Shown piece after piece: positions 37,205 to 57,648 of a DNA stretch of 64,000 nt (positions within the stretch are counted from its first letter, which is position 1; every line of letters begins with the position of its first letter). Source of the stretch: Aurantiochytrium sp. KH105 (Eukaryota; Sar; Bigyra; Thraustochytrida; Thraustochytriidae); the NCBI GenBank assembly GCA_003116975.1, contig BGKB01000008.1, forward strand, positions 434,001 to 498,000, in the 5' to 3' direction. A model generated the notes under the pieces. The model had not been told where the DNA came from. It worked only from the letters and a program-made list of their open reading frames with translations, and ran no database searches. The translations under genes were made by a program, and so were the position numbers.

Positions 37205-38761
37205 ATGAAACTCCATTATGCCGTGGGCCTTCTGGCCGTCCAAGCCGTTTACTTGTGCAACAACTTCTGCGTCGCATCGCGACCCAGTCTTGACAGAATC
37301 CTTGACTTTGCTCTGAAGCATTCGCAAGCAGAGGTCGAAAAAAAGTACGAGGTGGACCTTCCCCTCGAAATTAGCGGTGCAAACTACACTGCTGATCGCC
37401 TGCAGAAATTCTTCAACGTCACTTTCACGAACATCGCGCCTGAGCTGCCCATCATATCTGACAATGCGGAAAGATCAGTCACGCTTCGAACTGAGGTATC
37501 AATTCCTTGGATCGAAATCTTTAACGCGATTCGCGTCGTTTGTGGTCTTGTTGACACTTGCAAGCGCTTCTTTGAATTAGAAGACGACTGGAAAGGCTCG
37601 TACGGCATCGACGGCAAAGCCTACCCGGATGATCACGATTGGGCATCTGTTCACGGCTTTCAAAATGCCAAGCGAATGGTGCAGGCGACCTACATCTATT
37701 CGACAAATGGTTTTGGAAACAGGTGCGCGGAAGTAAAATGGTGGGTAACATGGAGCTACGGAGGTCAAATTAACAATCAAGGAGCATTCATGGCTGGCAT
37801 CGACGTTTATGTAGAAAAAAATCATGCTTGGCCTTGTTGGGTTGATGCAGAGGTCTGGCGCGTCAGCAATCCCAGGAACGAAGGGGCAGAGTACTGGCCC
37901 ATTGCTGCTGTCGATGTATATCACGAGGTGCAAATGTCAGGTGACAGATACGGCTGCACCATGAAGATCCGCGGCGATGGCTATGCGTATCAGTCTGACG
38001 TTGGTTATTGTTTCAGAACTGGCGCCTCTGCAGATCCAAACTATGCCGTCCCACCACCGCCGACGCCGCGACCAACGCCGCGGCCGACAACGGAGCCAAC
38101 GTTTCAATCCAATTCAGAGCTTAAGGAAACATCGAAGGATGGTTCTGGTTGTCTTGGCGGTGACAGTAAGGTTACACTTCCGTCAGGAACGTACAAGTTT
38201 GCAAGAGAACTCACCCCGGGCGACCTCGTTGTTGGCCAGAGCGGCGAATTCGAGACCGTGCTAGCCATGCCCCAGCTTGCGAGGCCGGGAACGCCCAAGC
38301 TTAGCGTCCTGCGTATTATCACTGCAGATGATCGCGAGTTGCTCCTCACCGGCGATCACCTCTTGCCTGTCTACGGACGAGGGCTCGCAGAGGCCGCCCT
38401 GGTCGCTCCAGGTGACTCTCTCGTTCTCGTTGGTGACAACGCAACCGTCACGGTTGCGGCTGTTCATTCCGTTCCAACGACCAGTCTATACCTTCCTCTC
38501 ACACCAAGCTGCACGCTTCTCATCGACGGCATAGTAATTTCATGTGCCTCAAGTGGAACGCTGTCGCCAGGTATGATTCAGATACTGCTACAACCGCTTT
38601 CCTTCCTATATTCGATTCTGCCCCACGCAGTATATCTCCACCTTCACGAGGTCATCTTTGTCTGGGTGTATCCCATCATTGCCAAAATGAGTGTGCTCGC
38701 ATTCGTATCTCTGTTTGGAACAGCATTGATGTTCCAAACGTTTGCTTCGAACAAGCAATGA
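37205..38761 (+). CDS. Secreted/membrane protein with Hedgehog-type Hint autoprocessing domain
   Basis: 518 aa from the ATG at 37205. Residues 1-24 are a signal peptide (MKLHYAVGLLAVQAVYL). About 25-280 form a Trp/Cys-rich extracellular domain I do not recognise (WWVTWSYGG, WPCWVDAEVW). A Pro/Thr linker (PTPRPTPRPTTEP, 287-299) follows. From about 316 to 450 the sequence fits a Hedgehog/intein (Hint) domain: nucleophile C316 after Gly (GSGCLGGDSKV), ELTPGDLVVG, LLTGDHLLPV with the T382-x-x-H385 pair, and IDGIVISCASS with C447 at the end, like the Hog ending. In Hedgehog this domain cleaves before its first Cys and esterifies the released N-part with sterol. A hydrophobic C-terminus (about 460-512) may be a membrane anchor or sterol-recognition-like region. 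Cleavage before C316 is inferred. Confidence 0.85.
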   Translation: MKLHYAVGLLAVQAVYLCNNFCVASRPSLDRILDFALKHSQAEVEKKYEVDLPLEISGANYTADRLQKFFNVTFTNIAPELPIISDNAERSVTLRTEVSIPWIEIFNAIRVVCGLVDTCKRFFELEDDWKGSYGIDGKAYPDDHDWASVHGFQNAKRMVQATYIYSTNGFGNRCAEVKWWVTWSYGGQINNQGAFMAGIDVYVEKNHAWPCWVDAEVWRVSNPRNEGAEYWPIAAVDVYHEVQMSGDRYGCTMKIRGDGYAYQSDVGYCFRTGASADPNYAVPPPPTPRPTPRPTTEPTFQSNSELKETSKDGSGCLGGDSKVTLPSGTYKFARELTPGDLVVGQSGEFETVLAMPQLARPGTPKLSVLRIITADDRELLLTGDHLLPVYGRGLAEAALVAPGDSLVLVGDNATVTVAAVHSVPTTSLYLPLTPSCTLLIDGIVISCASSGTLSPGMIQILLQPLSFLYSILPHAVYLHLHEVIFVWVYPIIAKMSVLAFVSLFGTALMFQTFASNKQ

Positions 38762-53146: not shown

Positions 53147-53665
53147 ATGTCGGAGTTCGTCGCGGGCAAGGGTAACTGCACCCTTCTGAGCAAGGAAGGT
53201 GAAAAGTTTGAGGTCGCCATGGAGGTTGCCCAGATGAGTGTGCTCGTCAAGGAAATGACCGACGAGGACAACGGCGACGAGACAAACCCAGAAATTCCAC
53301 TCCCCAACGTTGCCAGCTCGGTGCTGACCAAGGTGATCGAATTCTGCAAGCACCACGTCAAGGAACCCATGCAGGAAATTGAAAAGCCCCTCAAGAGCAA
53401 CAACATGAACGAGGTCGTCTCAGAGTGGGACGCCAAATTCGTTGACATTGACCAGGAAACTCTCTTTGAGCTCATTCTCGCCGCCAACTATCTGGACATC
53501 AAGCCTTTGCTCGATCTCACCTGCGCAAAGGTTGCTTCCATGATCAAAAACAAGACCCCCGAGGAGATCCGCGAGACCTTTAACATCACCAACGACTTTA
53601 CCCCCGAGGAGGAGGCCCGCGTTCGCGAAGAGAACAAGTGGTGCGAGGAGTCGCAGCCGCAATGA
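53147..53665 (+). CDS. SKP1: SKP1, copy 1 (canonical)
   Basis: 172 aa; start ATG at 53147 in a strong GCCACCATG context. It is a full-length SKP1, the adaptor linking F-box proteins to CUL1 in SCF ubiquitin ligases. The N-terminal BTB/POZ half (about 10-75, CTLLSKEGEKFEV, EIPLPNVASSVLTKVIEFC) contacts cullin. The C-terminal half (DIDQETLFELILAANYLDIKPLLDLTCAKVASMIKNKTPEEIRETFNI, quoted in parts: LFELILAANYLDIKPLLDL) binds F-boxes and ends ENKWCEESQPQ. All hallmark residues are intact. Its 3' half and downstream flank reappear in copy 2. Confidence 0.96.
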   Translation: MSEFVAGKGNCTLLSKEGEKFEVAMEVAQMSVLVKEMTDEDNGDETNPEIPLPNVASSVLTKVIEFCKHHVKEPMQEIEKPLKSNNMNEVVSEWDAKFVDIDQETLFELILAANYLDIKPLLDLTCAKVASMIKNKTPEEIRETFNITNDFTPEEEARVREENKWCEESQPQ

Positions 53666-54302
53666 TAGCTTTTGACACCTTCATCCCCTTGGCTTATCAC
53701 CATTTGTTTCCATCTACTACTATTACGCTCCTCATACCTATTGCTTGCACGTAGGGTGATGTCATCGAACGACCAGCACCGTCGCCCTGTCTTGCCTTGC
53801 CATGTCTTGCCTTGCCTTGCCTTGCCTTGCCTGCACAGAGTCTGCGGGATGCTGGACAATTTTCTGGGTACAACCTACAGAAGATGAAACAGCAAAACTT
53901 GCTCACTGAAACAGCAGGATTTGCGCCATGGTTTAGTGTGATGGTCACCGAGCTCGCTACTGCTGCACGCATGAGTGGCGACAACGGCGGCGGCGGCAAG
54001 TCCAGTTCGTTCGAAGCAAAGAGCGAGGTTGCCAGAACCTAATCTTGCATGCCGCGCAGAGCGAAAGCGACCGCTCAAAAGCTTCTGTAAAGCGTGAAGC
54101 GACTCTTAAAATTCTTGTGCGCGGAAAAGCTCTCGTGTTCGCGGTCTCGCATTCCCGATGAATGAGGACAACGAAGCACACCCGCCAAGTGCAGTACTTA
54201 CCCCCTTCCCAACCAAATGTGATCTCATGCACAGGATGCCATCGTCTACGGTACCGGGAGGGGCACATCTAGAATGCTGCCTTGCCTCATCATCGTTTGT
54301 CT
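53339..54302. repeat. Segmental duplication R1, copy a (SKP1 3' half plus flank)
   Basis: Nearly identical to 55072-56093: same SKP1 3' coding half, stop, 3' flank (TGATAGCTTTTGACACC...) and about 600 further bases. Differences are small indels, such as the longer CCTTG run here (53790-53831) and a 96-bp internal duplication in the other copy. Confidence 0.9.
53790..53831. repeat. (CCTTG)n microsatellite
   Basis: Imperfect CTTGC units in the 3' flank of SKP1 copy 1. A shorter version occurs in the duplicate at about 55521-55540. Confidence 0.9.
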
Positions 54303-54624
54303 GCAGCTCGTCGCCTTCCACCGTTTGCCCCCCCCACTTTCTCAACGACCGCTATACTTTGTACTAGCTAGCTCCCCGTGCCGTCCCTGATAATTGTAGC
54401 AGTAGGCCAAGTAGCAAATGCGTAGAAACAAGAGCCCGGAACTCTTTTTCTTTTCTTTTTTCACGCTCTTCCCACTTTCTGGGAGCACTCCCCCGCCGCC
54501 GTCGCGCCTGACCAGTGGCTATCCGTTAGCGCACTCCCCCTCAGCAACCGGAAAAAAGGCGGAGACCACGTAGTAACACAAAGGCAGACCCCGATCGAGA
54601 TCGAGCGCGTCGGCTGCTAGCACG

Positions 54625-54672
54625 CGGGCGGGCGGGCGGGCGGGCGGGCGGGCGGGCGGGCGGGCGGGCGGG
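54625..54672. repeat. (GGGC)n tract abutting assembly gap
   Basis: At least twelve GGGC units running into the N gap; the matching tract in R2 copy b (about 56862-56883) is shorter. Confidence 0.92.
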
Positions 54673-54690
54673 NNNNNNNNNNNNNNNNNN
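54673..54690. other. Assembly gap (18 N)
   Basis: Eighteen undetermined bases directly after the GGGC run; the true length is unknown. Confidence 0.99.
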
Positions 54691-54807
54691 AAGTAGGCAG
54701 GCAGGCCGGTGGAGCGACGGACTGCAGCAGGCCGCGCAACGAAAGCGACCCAGCGGTGTAAGCAGACACCTGTGAGATTGACGCGCAGACTCGGAAATCG
54801 ATCGAGC

Positions 54808-55398
54808 ATGACGGAGACCACGTCAGGCACGCTGGCGGAAGCGGAGCAAGCTCAGGCACTGACAGAAGCGCAGATGCAGGCGCAATGCCGACTGATTAGC
54901 GCAGACGGCGAAGAGTTCGTGGTGCCGCGAAGCATCGCACGGCAGAGCGTTCGCATTCGCAAAAGGATCGAGGAGTGCGAAGACGATGAGGCCGCCGCCG
55001 CCAAAGACGACGTTAACATCCCAGACGTACTTCTGTCAGACATAAAGGGCAACCTCTTGAAGATTGCGCTCGAATTCTGCGAGAACCACGTCAAGGAACC
55101 CATGCAGGAAATTGAAAAGCCCCTCAAGAGCAACAACATGAACGAGGTCGTCTCAGAGTGGGACGCCAAATTCGTTGACATTGACCAGGAAACTCTCTTT
55201 GAGCTCATTCTCGCCGCCAACTATCTGGACATCAAGCCTTTGCTCGATCTCACCTGCGCAAAGGTTGCTTCCATGATCAAAAACAAGACCCCCGAGGAGA
55301 TCCGCGAGACCTTCAACATCACCAACGAATTAACCCCCGAGGGGGAGGCACGCGTTCGCGAGGAGAACAAGTGGTGCGAGGAGTCGCAGCCGCAATGA
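54808..55398 (+). CDS. SKP1-like hybrid gene, copy 2
   Basis: 196 aa from the ATG at 54808. Residues 1 to about 90 (MTETTSGTLAEAEQAQ, CRLISADGEEFVVPRSIARQS, IEECEDDEAAAA) match copy 3 with several substitutions (VRIRKRIEE against VLIREMIEE, PDVLLSDIKGN against PDVPLPNVKGN). From the EFC near residue 91 onward it is almost identical to copy 1, to the same ending ENKWCEESQPQ and 3' flank. The junction lies near 55072-55090. The protein therefore pairs the diverged cullin-side half with the canonical F-box-side half. The frame is intact, so it may be functional, but the N-half changes could reflect relaxed constraint. Confidence 0.9.
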   Translation: MTETTSGTLAEAEQAQALTEAQMQAQCRLISADGEEFVVPRSIARQSVRIRKRIEECEDDEAAAAKDDVNIPDVLLSDIKGNLLKIALEFCENHVKEPMQEIEKPLKSNNMNEVVSEWDAKFVDIDQETLFELILAANYLDIKPLLDLTCAKVASMIKNKTPEEIRETFNITNELTPEGEARVREENKWCEESQPQ

Positions 55399-56093
55399 TA
55401 GCTTTTGACACCTTCATCCCCTTGGCTTATCACCATTTGTTTCCATCTACTACTATTACGCTCCTCATACCTATTGCTTGCACGTAGGGTGATGTCATCG
55501 AACGACCAGCACCGTCGCCCTGCCTTGCCTTGCCTTGCCTGCACAGAGTCTGCGGGATGCTGAACAATTTTCTGGTCACAACCTACAGAAGATGAAACAG
55601 TAGGATTTGCGCCATGATTTAGTGTGATGGTCACCGAGCTCGCTACTGCTGCACGCATGAGTGGCGACGACGGCGGCGGCGGCAAGTCCACTTCGTTCGA
55701 AGCAAAGAGCGAGGTTGCCAGAACCTAATTTTGCATGCCGCGCAGAGCGATTCAATTCCTACTCAAAAGCGACCGCGGCAAGTCCACTTCTTTCGAAGCA
55801 AACAGCGAGGTTGCCAGCACCTAATCTTGCATGCCGCGCAGAGCGAAAGCGACCGCTCAAAAGCTTCTGTAAAGCGTGAAGCGACTCTTAAAATTCTTGT
55901 GCGCGGAAAAGCTCTCGTGTTCGCGGTCTCGCATTCCCGATGAATGAGGACAACGAAGCACACCCGCCAAGTGCAGTACTTACCTCCCCCCCCCCCCCCA
56001 CAACCAAATGTGATCTCATGCACAGGATGCCATCGTCTACGGTACCGGGAGGGGCACATCTAGAATGCTGCCTTGCCTCATCATCGTTTGTCT
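55072..56093. repeat. Segmental duplication R1, copy b
   Basis: Counterpart of 53339-54302. Contains an extra internal tandem duplication (55681-55776 and 55777-about 55860) absent from copy a, and a C run near 55985-55998. Confidence 0.9.
55681..55860. repeat. Local tandem duplication (~96-bp unit)
   Basis: Unit 1 is 55681-55776 and unit 2 starts at 55777, both with GGCAAGTCCACTTC and GCATGCCGCGCAGAGCGA. Only one unit exists in R1 copy a (53995-54090). Confidence 0.85.
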
Positions 56094-56776
56094 CATGCTC
56101 ATCCTCAACGGAATTGACCGAGTCGGCAACATCTGCTGACGATGACGGGATTGACCCCGAATCCTTCAGGTGACGGCAAGTTTTCTGCAGCACGTCGGTG
56201 CAGGCCTTAGAACATGCGTGTCCAGAGTACTCGAAAGTTTCCTTTTCTGGCGATACTATGTCCAATTGCACATCAGAGAAGAAGGTGTCCGTAACCCTCC
56301 TCGCAGGCATGCGCATATCGCGCACATACTTCCTATTCATTAACGAGAGAGCGTCAGTCATACGCTAAGTTATCGGCACGTCCATTGAAATAATCAAGGT
56401 AGCCTATCTTGAATCCCTCCATCTGTACTGCTTTTGATGCCTCGAAAGTTGCGTCAGGCGTCGTCATGATGCCATTTCCCCGCCGGCATCATGAAGTGGA
56501 CTTTGGGTTGAATACCTGACCAAAACGCGCATCAAGCAAGCTCTCGTCGCGCTGGACTGGAGACTTGATCATTCGCTTCATAATGATTCCGCAAATACCA
56601 TCCAGAAGGCCCACGCCAAGAAGAAAAAGCAAGCACCCTGCGTTGTCAGACTCAATGGAGACTTTCAACTGAGAGCAGATCAAGTCGAAAACTGCAAGCG
56701 GAAAACCTAGCTTGCGCGACGCGCAGGGAATAGTGGCTGGGTGAACAGCGCGAAAATTGAAGATTGGCCGACTCCT
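56094..56776 (-). pseudogene. Possible decayed coding fragment(s), antisense
   Basis: Three neighbouring minus-strand frames read as protein-like sequence: 56489-56785 (hydrophobic LLFLLGVGLLDGICGII then MKRMIKSPVQRDESLLDARF), a short frame about 56366-56482 (MTTPDATFEASKAVQMEGF) and part of 55888-56361 (RDMRMPARRVTDTFFSD, KACTDVLQKTCRHL). They are in different frames and broken by stops, as in a decayed gene or unresolved introns. I recognise no family. This stretch is the part of the spacer missing from the first spacer. Confidence 0.3.
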
Positions 56777-57268
56777 CCTCAGCAACCGGAAAAAAAAAGG
56801 CGGAGACCACGTAGCACAAAGGCAGACCCCGATCGAGATCGAGCGCGTCGGCTGCTAGCACGCGGGCGGGCGGGCGGGCGGGCAAGTAGGCAGGCAGGCC
56901 GGTGGACTGACGGACTGCAGCAGGCCGCGCAACGAAAGCGACCCAGCGGTGTAAGCAGACACCTGTGAGATTGACGCGCAGACTCAGAAACCGATCGAGC
57001 ATGACGGAGACCACGTCAGGCACGCTGGCGGAAGCGGAGCAAGCTCAGGCACTGGCAGAAGCGCAGATGCAGGCGCAGTGCCGACTGATTAGCGCAGACG
57101 GCGAAGAGTTCGTGGTGCCGCGAAGCATCGCACGGCAGAGCGTGCTCATTCGCGAAATGATCGAGGAGTGCGAAGACGACGAGGCCGCCGCCGCTGCCGC
57201 CGCCGAAGACGACGTTGACATCCCAGACGTACCTCTGCCAAACGTAAAGGGCAACGTCTTGAAGACTG
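56777..57268. repeat. Segmental duplication R2, copy b
   Basis: Counterpart of 54539-55071: 5' flank with a GGGC tract of about 22 bases, and the 5' half of SKP1-like copy 3. Confidence 0.88.
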
Positions 57269-57648
57269 TGCTCGAGTTCTGCACCATGCATGCCAAGGAT
57301 CCGCTCCCCGACTTTGAAAAGCCGCTCATCTCCGAAGTTCTCACGGACTATATTCCTCCCGCCTATGTTGAATTTGTCGACCGCGACCGCGACGAGATCT
57401 TCGCCATCATCTCGTGCGCCAACTATCTTGATATTGCGTCATTGCTTGACCTCGCGTGCGCCAAGATCGCCGCAGAGCTCAAAGCCATGACTCCGGCCGA
57501 ACGCACCGAGGCTTTTGGCCCCCCTGTCAACTTGACGGCAGAGCAGGAGGCCCTCGTTCATGAATACAACAAATGGGAAACCGGGCCTGATGTCGACGAC
57601 GCCACCATTCCCACGCCAGAAGATCCCTCTGAGCAAAATGACTCTTGA
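57001..57648 (+). CDS. SKP1-like, copy 3 (diverged paralogue)
   Basis: 215 aa from the ATG at 57001. SKP1 fold with both halves present: CRLISADGEEFVVPRSIARQS and IPDVPLPNVKGNVLKTVLEFC (BTB half), an Ala run between them (about 61-68), then FAIISCANYLDIASLLDLACAKIAAELKAM and YNKWE (F-box half). It departs from canonical SKP1 in the middle (DPLPDFEKPLISEVLTDYIPP) and has a 20-residue acidic tail (DVDDATIPTPEDPSE). Probably a sub-specialised SCF adaptor. It is the parent of the 5' half of copy 2. Confidence 0.9.
   Translation: MTETTSGTLAEAEQAQALAEAQMQAQCRLISADGEEFVVPRSIARQSVLIREMIEECEDDEAAAAAAAEDDVDIPDVPLPNVKGNVLKTVLEFCTMHAKDPLPDFEKPLISEVLTDYIPPAYVEFVDRDRDEIFAIISCANYLDIASLLDLACAKIAAELKAMTPAERTEAFGPPVNLTAEQEALVHEYNKWETGPDVDDATIPTPEDPSEQNDS

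Follow-up and report, generated by a model that had tools for sequence, protein, structure and literature searches.

The 64,000-nucleotide stretch of Aurantiochytrium sp. KH105 DNA analysed here (the window, C8:434001-498000, where C8 is contig BGKB01000008.1) contains a tandem array of three SKP1-family genes: a canonical SKP1 (copy 1), a diverged paralogue (copy 3) and, between them, a hybrid of the two (Table 1). The array and its mosaic middle gene, proposed in a first-pass annotation of the sequence, are confirmed. All three frames are intact, all three genes exceed the Pfam cut-offs for Skp1_POZ and Skp1, and repeat analysis matches the 3' half of the hybrid to copy 1 (53337-53636 with 55070-55369, 97% identity) and its 5' half to copy 3 (54691-54990 with 56884-57183, 96%). 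The hybrid itself scores 36.5 bits for Skp1_POZ and 88.6 bits for the C-terminal Skp1 domain (cut-offs 21.9 and 22.3, respectively), and its 196 codons are all open, as had been claimed, in place of the broken frame of a pseudogene. The junction had been put at 55072-55090; its codon register holds, and the joint itself lies a few bases upstream. The switch occurs in the same codon of each parent and falls between 55069 (a copy-3 base) and 55074 (a copy-1 base). Such an in-register pattern cannot be chance. Additionally, the joint is in gap-free sequence, and the only nearby run of N (18 N, 54673-54690) ends 117 bases before the hybrid ATG, which speaks against the array being an artefact of that gap.

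Table 1. Features of the SKP1 array on C8 (positions in the window).
Feature	Position	Strand	Description
Copy 1, canonical SKP1	53147-53665	+	172 amino acids; Skp1 99.2 bits, Skp1_POZ 69 bits; source type of the hybrid 3' part
Copy 1 3' flank	53666-54302	+	Duplicated after the hybrid at 55399-56093
Foreign segment, 236 bp	54303-54538	+	89% identical to C319:19699-19931, same orientation
Copy of the copy-3 5' flank (56778-57000)	54540-54807	+	Contains the N gap 54673-54690 within a GGGC repeat
Hybrid SKP1-family gene	54808-55398	+	196 amino acids; codons 1-88 copy-3 type, codons 89-196 copy-1 type
Cluster of 18 hybrid-private substitutions	54862-55086	+	Codons 19-93, 222 gap-free sites; 15 replacing and 3 silent
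Joint	55070-55073	+	4-base tract TCGA, identical in both parents
Hybrid 3' flank, copy-1 type	55399-56093	+	Internal tandem duplication at ~55740-55850, absent in the other two copies
Dispersed repeat	56002-56666		Most of it lacking in C118 and in the spacer ahead of the hybrid
Copy 3, diverged SKP1 paralogue	57001-57648	+	215 amino acids; Skp1_POZ 57.0 bits, Skp1 30.8 bits; source type of the hybrid 5' part

Whole-genome searches covered 76.0 Mb in 367 contigs and scored the best candidates only. Within that scope, no second copy of the hybrid was found, and a DNA search returned only the SKP1 copies on C8 and on a second contig, C118; it yielded no third donor for the changed stretch of the hybrid. 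Further Skp1_POZ matches were confined to C15 and C6, whose genes form a pair and are read as elongin C.

The region C8:441012-525991 is collinear with C118:138959-221550, with 16 alignments longer than 400 bases (one of them that of the hybrid with copy 1), 81,190 aligned columns and 94.1% identity. C118 carries SKP1 copies 1 and 3, without the hybrid. Several other genes that were sampled are paired as well: 12 cullin matches on 10 contigs form 5 pairs, the JmjC-like gene neighbouring the SKP1 locus has two matches in the genome, and PfaA-like/polyketide synthase genes are paired across contigs (the best PfaA-like match, 930 bits, is under the model cut-off of 1010, and sub-cut-off matches also occur in 11 of 14 control genomes). 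The pairing has exceptions, as the Ribosomal_L28e-family gene of C319 and the ParA-like genes described below are each single. The window has a G+C content of 57.8%. Passages of the KH105 genome report describe a diploid with 54.4% G+C; its text puts the size at 76.7 Mb in 512 scaffolds, and a table at 86.0 Mb (PMC5924542). We read the assembly as holding both haplotypes. Because the collinear C118 has copies 1 and 3 and no hybrid, the hybrid looks heterozygous, on the C8 chromosome only and thus on one of two copies, and we infer that C118 never had it. The parents themselves are both under constraint, since between the C8 and C118 alleles copy 1 has 9 silent changes and no replacing one, and copy 3 has 13 silent and 7 replacing changes.

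The flanks follow the two halves of the hybrid in part. As had been annotated, its 5' flank is of copy-3 type and its 3' flank of copy-1 type, and the 3' homology of the copy-1 and hybrid flanks reaches 54302 and 56093, respectively. The spacers themselves differ: before the hybrid, 54303-54538 takes the position that approximately 56094-56777 (684 bases) has in the other spacer, and the complete spacer duplication expected of an unequal-crossover chimera is not found. The segment 54303-54538 is foreign to the array. In C319 the matching sequence lies upstream of a Ribosomal_L28e-family frame (80 bits), with 554 bases between its end and the frame start. We read this gene as eL28; a Ribosomal_L28e-family pair on C51 and C123 scores higher (128.5 bits). 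The C319 gene, at L041:1501-2728, is a single locus without a partner allele among the best candidates of the genome search, and its partner may be unassembled. The spacer before copy 3, with its dispersed repeat, is probably the ancestral one. This repeat has ten matches in the genome at 69-77%, four of which span nearly all of it, and its sole long frame gives no Pfam match.

The age of the hybrid can be judged from changes private to each copy. Among 537 gap-free sites of the 3' flank, 4 are private to the hybrid, 4 to C8 copy 1 and 39 to C118 copy 1, and one differs in all three. Over the whole 3' half, 6 C8-private changes compare with 46 that are C118-private (p = 1e-8). The 3' half thus clearly has a later common ancestor with C8 copy 1 than with its C118 allele. 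It separated from C8 copy 1 once the haplotypes had already diverged, at about 1/5 to 1/3 of the haplotype distance as judged by the flank. For this half, an origin of the hybrid before the haplotype split is rejected by the same 46 to 6 counts. The 5' half only leans towards an origin from C8 copy 3, and not another allele, and may predate the haplotype split. In its coding part, 7 changes are C118-private and none is C8-private (p = 0.016). These counts leave out one silent difference in a run of GCC at codon 62, where C118 has a gap, a 9-base in-frame length difference at the same place, all indels, and the 5' flank ahead of the N gap (54540-54628), where the alignment is partly out of register and 10 apparent hybrid-private sites come, by eye, mostly from two 3-base length differences.

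The hybrid has also diverged from both parents. Among 1241 gap-free sites, 27 bases are private to it and one more differs three ways, and these lie on both sides of the joint. They are clustered: 18 of the 28 sites fall within 222, against 10 in the other 1019, and none of 10000 shuffles reached 18 in a 225-site window (Fisher p = 5e-8, with boundaries picked after the data had been viewed). A comparison of replacing and silent changes, of the kind suggested at first pass, gave 18 replacing and 4 silent private changes in the coding sequence, a ratio of about 1.2 that is not different from 1, on few changes and with modest power; the two rates do not differ (p = 1.0). Similarly, the 3' part shows 5 replacing to 1 silent change in the hybrid, against 0 to 9 on the two copy-1 lineages (p = 0.002). 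Compared with a simple join of the parents without the private changes, the Skp1_POZ score falls from 61.4 to 36.5 bits (25 bits lost) and the Skp1 score from 98.0 to 88.6 bits. The changes hit conserved columns (6 of 49) about as often as variable ones (9 of 108; p = 0.56), and 3 of the 18 changed residues are outside these columns. For instance, the conserved PLPNV has become LLSDI. The copy-1-type C-terminus carries D174E, F175L and E179G. Of the 16 changes in the 5' coding sequence, 10 are transitions from G:C to A:T and 5 are at CpG, as deamination or repeat-induced mutation might leave; that reading is set aside, since C8 copy 3 shows none. Overall, the private changes look like lost constraint, with no purifying selection detectable.

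Together, the array points to unequal exchange between the paralogues, which in the broad sense is well supported by the sequence comparisons. A tandem rearrangement would have fused the 5' part of copy 3, in codon register, with the 3' part of copy 1, and the sequence lying between the parents would have been doubled in the process, giving copy 1, hybrid and copy 3 on C8 where C118 has copy 1 and copy 3; the hybrid would then have evolved without detectable purifying selection. This history, taken as a whole, is considered probable. Unequal crossing-over had been put forward at first pass as predicting exactly the order parent, hybrid, parent, and that order, the joint at a homologous position and an unrearranged chromosome with both parents (C118) are what is found. 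Plain crossover is nevertheless not supported, because the spacer before the hybrid lacks approximately 680 bp and has the foreign 236 bp. The unequal spacers therefore call either for one more event or for template switching in several steps. The exchange may thus have been a crossover and then a deletion with filler, or else a single replicative template switch that made three joints and would also have picked up the segment resembling the L28e upstream region; either would fit.

Several observations weigh against this history. Unequal spacers are not what a plain crossover would leave, and the parental identity around the joint, just 75 of 120 bases (62%), is low for such an exchange. Downstream of the gap, the 5' flank has 1 C118-private change against 3 C8-private changes and so leans opposite to the coding half; coding and flank together give 8 against 3 (p = 0.23). 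Private changes are also more frequent in coding than in noncoding sequence (22/582 against 5/648, p = 3e-4, with denominators typed by hand; the alignment count gives 588 and 653). This excess is more than drift at the flank rate would give, and lost constraint alone is insufficient for it; near the joint a further cause is needed, which may be positive selection, mutagenic repair or sequence error. That no stop or frameshift has arisen in the hybrid is weak evidence for function.

Among the more specific readings, a single microhomology-mediated, error-prone template switch is a serious contender, although we lean somewhat away from it. It is a special case of the broad explanation, in which replication would have passed from the copy-1 flank to the L28e-upstream-like segment, then to the copy-3 flank and 5' coding sequence, and back to copy 1, and the same event would have left the clustered point changes near the joint. 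Microhomology-mediated template switching can come with clustered mutations, and the hybrid has in common with it short joints, an inserted foreign segment and a local excess of point changes. One step would explain the foreign 236 bp, the shortened spacer, the 222-site cluster with its 18 changes, and joints that share at most a few bases (4 at the coding joint; the other two were judged by eye). However, at the coding joint the paralogues meet in exact register, unlike in microhomology template switching and in favour of homology, and the change cluster lies almost entirely to one side of it. Between the foreign segment and C319 the divergence is 11%, higher than between the hybrid flank and copy 1, and the segment perhaps dates from another time; its true donor may also be missing, because the search gave no partner allele for the C319 gene.

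A different reading of the same changes sees positive selection at work on a new gene, which would be gaining a different BTB surface and would serve as a SKP1-cullin-F-box (SCF) adaptor or compete with SKP1. The excess of private replacing changes over the noncoding flank rate (p = 4e-4) leans this way, as do the 16 private changes in codons 1-88 against none in C8 copy 3 (p = 3e-5), part of which the constraint on copy 3 may explain; the frame is intact, and the foreign upstream segment could change expression. Such selection is nonetheless unlikely, as replacing and silent rates do not differ, private silent sites also exceed noncoding ones (p = 0.04), conserved residues are lost and the family score is reduced. 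The suggestion made at first pass of a new SCF adaptor is not supported, the coding excess being the single result that leans towards it. Nor does its pairing of a diverged cullin-binding half with a canonical F-box-binding half stand: the joint corresponds to human SKP1 59/60, as counted on the alignment, and therefore the LAANYLDIK segment, presumably the CUL1-contact helix with N108/Y109, comes from copy 1. This segment and most of the C-terminal part, both of copy-1 type, are kept in the hybrid, which perhaps binds F-box proteins through its copy-1 part. Most likely, the hybrid is an intact young duplicate that is dispensable and has no established new role. It is very doubtful that a single error-prone template switch made, on one chromosome, a gene from three sources (an upstream segment of a ribosomal-protein gene, the front of the diverged SKP1 and the back of the canonical one) with a burst of amino-acid changes near its joint, and that this gene is now kept as a new BTB adaptor.

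Gene conversion without any exchange, in which copy 1 would have overwritten a duplicate of copy 3, is also improbable. Codons 94-168 hold no change private to the hybrid or to copy 1 (0 of 225 sites), and the longest run of parental identity, 229 sites, was matched in 171 of 10000 shuffles, so a later conversion from copy 1 is possible; however, the copy-1 type runs for about 700 bases past the stop and never reverts to copy-3 sequence. Least probable is an assembly or consensus artefact, to which the 18-N gap just upstream, the heterozygous genome and the reliance on assembly sequence would lend themselves, since the joint is in gap-free sequence, private substitutions lie on both sides of it, no matching copy was found among the best candidates of the assembly search, and random errors would not gather in coding sequence yet preserve the frame.

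The hybrid is a chimeric gene of a known kind, and its unusual features are the foreign upstream segment and the change cluster. CYP11B1 and CYP11B2 are closely related genes. In familial hyperaldosteronism type I, a CYP11B1/CYP11B2 chimera arises, like the SKP1 hybrid, by unequal recombination between two related genes (PMC3848474); in contrast to that case, the SKP1 parents are 62% identical around the joint, a foreign 236 bp lies upstream, and private replacing changes have accumulated. Similarly, Arabidopsis SKP1-like (ASK) genes are described as gained by tandem duplication, as here, and by retroposition, with low constraint on intronless members and frameshifts in three loci (ASK6, AlySkp02 and AhaSkp11); the passages in question mention no hybrid between two SKP1 types, unlike the gene on C8 (PMC6463862). 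If confirmed, the locus would offer a young gene on one chromosome together with both parents and the unrearranged chromosome within one assembly, so that its birth mechanism, mutational aftermath and expression would be directly testable. Should the change cluster prove real, gene fusion would be linked to local mutagenesis.

Between its two SKP1 genes, C118 has a 2.6-kb insertion that is absent from C8 (L006:3648-6233; C118:186647-189232). The first part of this insertion has 18-base tandem units and dispersed repeats. The insertion also contains an intact ParA-like ATPase frame of 526 amino acids, from an ATG at L006:4328 and with the motif KGGVGKT, which matches Pfam AAA_31 at 75.9 bits and the PHROG ParA-like partition protein at 116 bits. 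Its relatives, at 57% and 55%, are one each on C178 and C74, with weak matches on C154; no relative was found in a viral-contig scan. There is a hint that this element may be mobile, because its members are single copies in a mostly paired assembly. Directly before the collinear region begins, C8:394001-441011 and C118:100001-138958 share no alignment longer than 400 bases, which reflects either a structural difference or a misjoin. Elsewhere in the window, the frame at 37205-38761 carries a Hint module (Pfam, 39.1 bits), which we take to be an intein/hedgehog-type self-processing domain.

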